Below, piece by piece: positions 9,499 through 10,831 of a DNA stretch of 64,000 bases. Source of the stretch: Bacteroidota bacterium. GTDB taxonomy: Bacteria > Bacteroidota > Bacteroidia > Flavobacteriales_D > Crocinitomicaceae. The translations under genes and the position numbers were made by a program. The stretch covers positions 186,001 through 250,000 of the forward strand of contig JAJRQK010000029.1 of NCBI GenBank assembly GCA_024280295.1, in the 5' to 3' direction. How positions within the stretch are numbered: position 1 is the stretch's first letter; each line of letters opens with the position of its first letter. A model generated the notes under the pieces. The model saw nothing but the letters and a program-made list of their open reading frames with translations. It ran no database searches and was not told where the DNA came from.

Positions 9499-10831
9499 TT
9501 AATAACTTATATTCCTTTTTGGGAATACGTCTCTTAAAAAGCTTTCAAAAATTTGAATCAATGATAATTTAGATTCACTTTTCAATTGTTTCATCATTTT
9601 CTTCAAATTCCAACCGGTAGCGGCTAAAAATGCATTGTAAACGCAAAAAAAATTAGAAGAAGAGCTGCAATAGAGCCAGTTATTGGGCATTTGAAAACAG
9701 ACTTTAGGATGACACAAAACTATCTGAGTGGATCAGCATCACCACAAATCAATGTTTTTGATATTCTGTATCTCGCTTTAAGGGTTTGTAGTCAGGTGTA
9801 GATGTTTTAGTAGTTCCGATTTGTTTCTGTCCTTTTCCACCTCGGTCATACACTACTTCTTGAGGAGTGTAGTTAATGTTTGATTTCATCTGATTCAATA
9901 GAGGCTCGATTGTTTTACTATCATGTGGATTTCTTTCAAATGACATAATTGCAGTAATAATCAACGTTTTTGATGTTGTGATCAAGCCAACTTTATTGCC
10001 GAACTCATATTGCTTATGCGCTTTGCCCTTCGCTATGCATGCTGTAAATGGTTTGTGCAAACTATAAATCTTGTCTTTATCTGAACGTTTTTGAGCAAGA
10101 ACACGATAATACAAATCAAGTTCTTGTTGATATTCATTGACAACAGGATCAGTAAGTTTTCGTTCTAACTCTCTTAATAATCGTGCTGCTATCGTTTTTA
10201 GTTCTCGACCTGATTTCTTTGCCTTTTTCCTTTGTTTTGGGTGGGATGAATTGTGTGTATCCCTTACTAATTGCCTGGAAATTTTAGTATACGTTTGTCG
10301 TTGATTAATTCCTTCCCTTTGAGCTATGCTGTTGCATTTGTCAATGATCTTCTTTGCCAACTTAGCATCGGTGGGGAAAGTAGTATTGTTCTCTGCCACT
10401 ATTGTATCAGATAGCGTTATTTTTTCCTTGGCTGCTTTCCCATGAAGTAAAACAGAATATGCAAATATTTTTTCGACTCCTAATTCGCTTATACGTTTTC
10501 GAAAATGGACAAAGTCACTAGGATCGCATGGGAACTTATACTCAAAATGAGCCATTCCACAGAAATACTGCATGTACGGGTCTCGTACCCAAGTTTCGCA
10601 TAAGGTCTCATCTCCTAAATTGTAAATCGTTTTCAACATTAACAACCAACCATCAACCGTACGGGCATTGTAGGTTTCCCAGTATTCGAATAGAGACTAG
10701 AAAACTTGTTTTCAAAATGTCTCCAGTCAATTTTATCAGCCAATAATACTAATTCGACCTAGGTTAATGAACTCCTTGAGAAGAGGCTTGAATATGTTTT
10801 GTTGATTTTGTGAGCTAGATTTTCCAATCAT
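9499..10831 (-). mobile_element. Decayed IS5-family transposase (IS remnant)
   Basis: A minus-strand transposase can be followed from ATG 10831 (MIGKSSSQNQQNIFKPLLKEF) to the stop at 9499. Order: N-terminal helix domain with [14 protein letters not shown] and [10 protein letters not shown], the main block 10645-9749 with DDE-domain residues ([35 protein letters not shown]), then [18 protein letters not shown] at the end. The frame breaks near 10755, near 10641 and in an A-run at about 9645-9652. A 122-bp segment at 9633-9754 lies in the opposite orientation. It cannot encode a working enzyme. I could not find convincing terminal inverted repeats or a target duplication, so the limits given are those of the gene only. 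Confidence 0.88.
9633..9754 (+). other. 122-bp micro-inverted segment inside the transposase remnant
   Basis: On the plus strand this piece reads [27 protein letters not shown] and SPQIN, the conserved DDE_Tnp_1 region holding the catalytic Glu, while the transposase on both sides is on the minus strand. The piece is bounded by CATTG (9633-9637) and CAATG (9750-9754). Turning it round joins EYQKH to CKRKK on one side and QIN to AFLAATGW on the other, restoring the expected protein order except for one base in an A-run. Confidence 0.85.

Follow-up and report, generated by a model that had tools for sequence, protein, structure and literature searches.

A transposase gene in the draft genome of a Bacteroidota bacterium contains a short piece that reads on the opposite strand and is bounded by a 5-bp inverted repeat. 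The locus raises the questions of whether this piece was truly inverted and whether the repeat at its ends caused the inversion or was made by it. The window, which is the whole stretch of 64,000 nucleotides that was analysed, corresponds to positions 186001-250000 of contig C40 in a genome (G000) of 3.46 Mb and 74 contigs. Left and right sites and arms are named in the transposase sense (minus strand) unless stated otherwise.

The host element and its surroundings

The piece lies in a degenerate yet full-length insertion sequence of about 1.47 kb (9488-10954, minus strand). The remnant of the main transposase open reading frame (298 amino acids, 9749-10645, minus strand) stops at once on entering the inverted piece at the left junction, and the C-terminal remainder, ending ...ISY, is found in normal orientation at 9499-9632 (minus strand). 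A protein model search gave a match to the NCBIfam model NF033578 (IS5_1) over residues 2-280 with an E value of 1e-76; at 258.7 bits the score fell short of the model's curated threshold (275), which would not be surprising for a fragment. Identity to an intact relative of 444 amino acids in L049 was 76% (276/362). Terminal inverted repeats were present on both ends of the element, TTAGTCGATCCTTAA on the left and TTAAGGAGCGACTA on the right, and these ends were common to other copies. Judged by the model match and the terminal inverted repeats, the element belongs to the IS5 family (IS5_1). A plasmid search with the element as query gave one record, and the match covered 5% of the query.

The transposase gene is damaged at several places. 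Its N-terminal part is read in another frame between residues 26 and 62 (approximately), and the main frame contains stops. The sequence-only reading had described the rejoined frame as one base off in an A-run, and the window copy indeed carries one extra base there, CGCAAAAAAAATTAG versus CGCAAAAAGTTTAG in the copy on contig C10 of the same genome. Neither orientation of the piece yields an open reading frame; owing to the lesions in the A-run and the N-terminal part, the transposase frame remains closed when the piece is flipped back. The peptide within the flipped piece fits the R-x3-E-x6-K signature, which in this group of DDE transposases contains the third catalytic residue. The inversion strips this segment from an element that has other lesions as well, and no function was found for the event.

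No intact copy of the element was found in the window's genome. The copy on contig C63 (G000:C63:49389-49730; L010, L037) consists of the two element ends only, with query positions 1-93 joined to approximately 1192-1466, and resembles a small non-autonomous derivative of an IS5-family element. Shorter fragments of 47-208 bp were present on contigs C39, C30, C70, C65 and C26 of the same genome.

A genome of the same genus, G016, has counterparts of the genes around the site (74-79% identity) and lacks the element; it is collinear with the window up to ...GTACCTAG and then diverges, and its empty site follows CTAG. Between the window and the syntenic G016 contig there were three collinear stretches within window positions 22-9490 and no inverted match, in a search that covered only about 9 kb and in which short inversions would be missed at 74-79% identity. 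The element sits upstream of mutL (7241-9088, minus strand). A single in-frame amber stop at 8015-8017, within the linker, divides mutL into an open reading frame of 357 amino acids and a second one, the remainder, of 242, and the gene is otherwise intact. The G016 mutL has a glutamine codon at this site and forms one open frame of 622 codons between stops. The amber stop may point to a mutator genotype of recent origin, or it may be a base error.

Orientation of the piece and its polarity

The sequence-only reading had placed a 122-bp inverted piece at 9633-9754, and comparison with the C10 paralogue bore this out. The flanks matched C10 on the minus strand with 97% identity (235/243 and 148/153). 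The core of 112 bp (9638-9749, plus strand; 122 bp with the 5-bp ends), which encodes a 33-amino-acid peptide on the plus strand of an element that itself lies on the minus strand, matched C10 solely on the opposite strand (108/117, 92%; E=7e-43). Protein matches of the window copy were likewise of mixed strand. In the transposase sense, the window is normal up to ...GATACAGAATATCAAAAA, the expected sequence is then reverse-complemented, and the sequence is normal again from ...CATTTTTAGCCGCTACCGG. The two bounding motifs are present today exactly where that reading had put them, CATTG at 9633-9637 and CAATG at 9750-9754 in window coordinates, with 112 bp in between.

Differences from C10 numbered 9/117 in the inverted piece and 13/396 in the flanks. 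Error-prone copying of the piece was considered as a source of excess differences and was not convincing (Fisher p=0.064).

Alignment to other copies had been proposed as a check, and the piece was in normal orientation in C10 and C63 and in a copy from a sister species of the same genus (G003:C703). To extend the survey, genomes were scanned with the peptide from G003, and the best 80 of 432 confirmed candidates were taken as a set of named loci. A single match crossed both junctions (from residue 5 or less to residue 50 or more) in 64 of these best 80, and the other 16 gave shorter matches on one strand each. Mixed-strand matches occurred in none of the best 80 of 432, and the window copy was the only one examined that had them. 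Since the other copies and homologue loci compared were all non-inverted, the inversion is derived and arose in the window copy; on these alignments, a derived micro-inversion is well supported.

A chimera formed during assembly or library preparation could have turned the piece round only in the contig as assembled. The genome is a draft of 74 contigs, and amplification chimeras with short inverted joins occur. Such an artefact would, however, need two junctions 112 bp apart that return exactly to the original strand. Repeats of 5 bp are much too short for misleading an assembler, and the remainder of the window copy aligned cleanly to its paralogues. We consider an artefact improbable.

Origin of the 5-bp repeat

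The two arms differ in their history. The right arm (9633-9637, minus strand), CAATG in the transposase sense, opens CAATGCATTTTTAG and is ancestral: the right site reads CAATG in C63 as in the turned window copy, CAATA in C10 and AAATG in G003. The left arm (9750-9754, minus strand) reads CATTG, equal to the right-hand CAATG in reverse complement, and by alignment replaces an ancestral CGAAG, which is found in both C10 and G003:C703; this stretch is missing from C63. The left site encodes R-S in C10 and in G003, and the peptide over the left junction is EYQKRSKRKK in both. In the best 80 of 432 homologue loci, 64 covered the left site, the 16 others being dropped with matches that began after residue 5. 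Neither CATTG in the DNA nor H as the first residue occurred in any of these 64, among which R was the commonest first residue. The peptide EYQKH-CKRKK, which the sequence-only reading had obtained by rejoining the flanks, was accordingly not the original one.

The change can be written as CGAA-[G...C]-AATG to CATT-[inverted]-AATG, with the length at the junctions unchanged. The inverted repeat became more perfect through the event, with CGAAG turned into CATTG against CAATG. As the left arm was rewritten as the complement of the right arm, the repeat is, on the aligned copies, most likely for the most part a product and not a cause of the inversion. At about 3% divergence, it is unlikely that three clustered substitutions matched the complement of the other junction by chance.

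A clean inversion between pre-existing CATTG and CAATG, with the CGAAG of the other copies as a different, later state, would agree with the perfect 5-bp repeat of the present sequence. This explanation was rejected, as the outgroups read CGAAG at the left site: that sequence is common to C10 and the sister species, and the absence of H-C and CATTG from the 64 homologues (of the best 80 of 432), with R as the commonest first residue, leaves it scarcely any likelihood.

The proposal of a small inversion system fared no better. A site-specific, reversible intragenic inverton would be in keeping with the position of the inversion inside coding sequence and the inverted repeats at its ends. An inverton, however, has two pre-existing inverted repeat arms, and here the arms are of 5 bp and the left one is new. 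The piece was never inverted in the other copies or homologue loci compared, so that a second inverted copy was absent from C10, C63, G003:C703 and the best 80 of 432 loci, and no open reading frame is available in either orientation. An inverton is thus very improbable. If a rare, reversible intragenic inversion with 5-bp arms re-created an arm at each flip, the lineage would own a mechanism for inverting gene pieces of about 100 bp; we regard this as similarly far-fetched.

Mechanism of the inversion

The locus is probably explained by one reverse template switch during replication of this decaying IS5-family transposase gene. In the transposase sense, the nascent strand would leave its template after ...ATATCAAAAA(C), be extended in reverse along the opposite strand, starting at the G of CAATG and ending at the G of GTAAACGC, and then move back to its first template at (C)AATGCATTTTTAG. 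Such a switch would invert the spacer (about 112 bp), delete some 4 bp of the left site (CGAA) and add an inverted duplicate of some 4 bp of the right site (AATG/CATT), leaving the overall length unchanged. Read in reverse complement, the flipped fragment corresponds to an ancestral segment close by, and one event accounts for the whole cluster of changes. Template switching is favoured because an inverted spacer together with one rewritten arm is the mark that the literature describes for reverse template switching. Counting against it, the 112-bp spacer exceeds the published examples compared, and the microhomology is just 1 nt, each junction having a C/G overlap of this length.

A5/T5 stretches lie outside the junctions and could aid pairing. 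Of 9086 window positions sampled, 598 had by chance an inverted match of 5 bp within the outer 12 nt, and the A5/T5 stretches are therefore not evidence for a guided switch. The earlier suggestion of template switching between short inverted repeats holds in so far as switching is the best explanation; the repeat was not pre-existing, and its left arm was made by the event.

Identical junctions are predicted by two double-strand breaks, one of them with a 4-nt overhang filled in on both sides, if the fragment was end-joined in inverted orientation and 3-4 nt were trimmed at the other end; an inverted 4-bp duplication, a small loss at the other end and a 1-nt overlap would result. This route demands a pair of breaks separated by about 112 bp, and also that the small fragment was kept. 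A search for Ku (PF02735) gave no match in the window's genome (98.8% complete), with the control positive in one genome out of 14, that of Bacillus subtilis, and classical end joining is less likely for this reason. Breakage and joining are, on the whole, unlikely, although Ku-independent end joining may offer a route, and we infer that a polymerase switched template.

Comparison with known systems

The inversion is a real and well polarised mutation scar, yet of an ordinary, known kind. It provides a clear, polarised small inversion in a bacterium in which the bounding inverted repeat is a result and not a cause, and it calls for caution in surveys where recombination sites are assigned from short inverted repeats flanking an inversion. 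The element resembles IS5_1 (NF033578) as a whole and in its protein; unlike a working IS5_1, the window copy is a pseudogene that carries the inversion as well as frameshifts and stops. Intragenic invertons of bacteria are among the subjects cited in a review (PMC11868660).

Human-chimpanzee microinversions (PMC8755829) are likewise small inversions whose ends are short, often imperfect inverted repeats. They are mostly clean and measure 17-33 nt, unlike the 112-bp spacer of the window. The authors doubt template switching with very short or imperfect arms and favour break-induced replication.

The process proposed for the window is described in PMC8794818, which includes loop inversions in bacterial rRNA genes, and in PMC7954356, where a four-point model for short-range switches is set out and applied to apes. 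Fitted by eye and not by the pair HMM of that paper, the window event agrees with this model as outlined there: copying proceeds from L to point 1, runs in reverse from 2 to 3 and resumes at 4. As with a four-point switch, a perfect inverted repeat is left in the descendant.

According to PMC8604942, template switching between non-identical inverted repeats homogenises the arms and inverts the spacer. The yeast cases given there have arms of 10-16 bp and spacers of 2-5 bp, and their arms measure 10 bp or more once the switch is complete; here, in a bacterial pseudogene, the arms are 5 bp and the spacer is 112 bp. In the Saccharomyces gene REG2, homogenisation of the arms and inversion of the spacer took place in one event, and the window copy appears to have followed the same course, a single step that turned its spacer and made one arm agree with the other.
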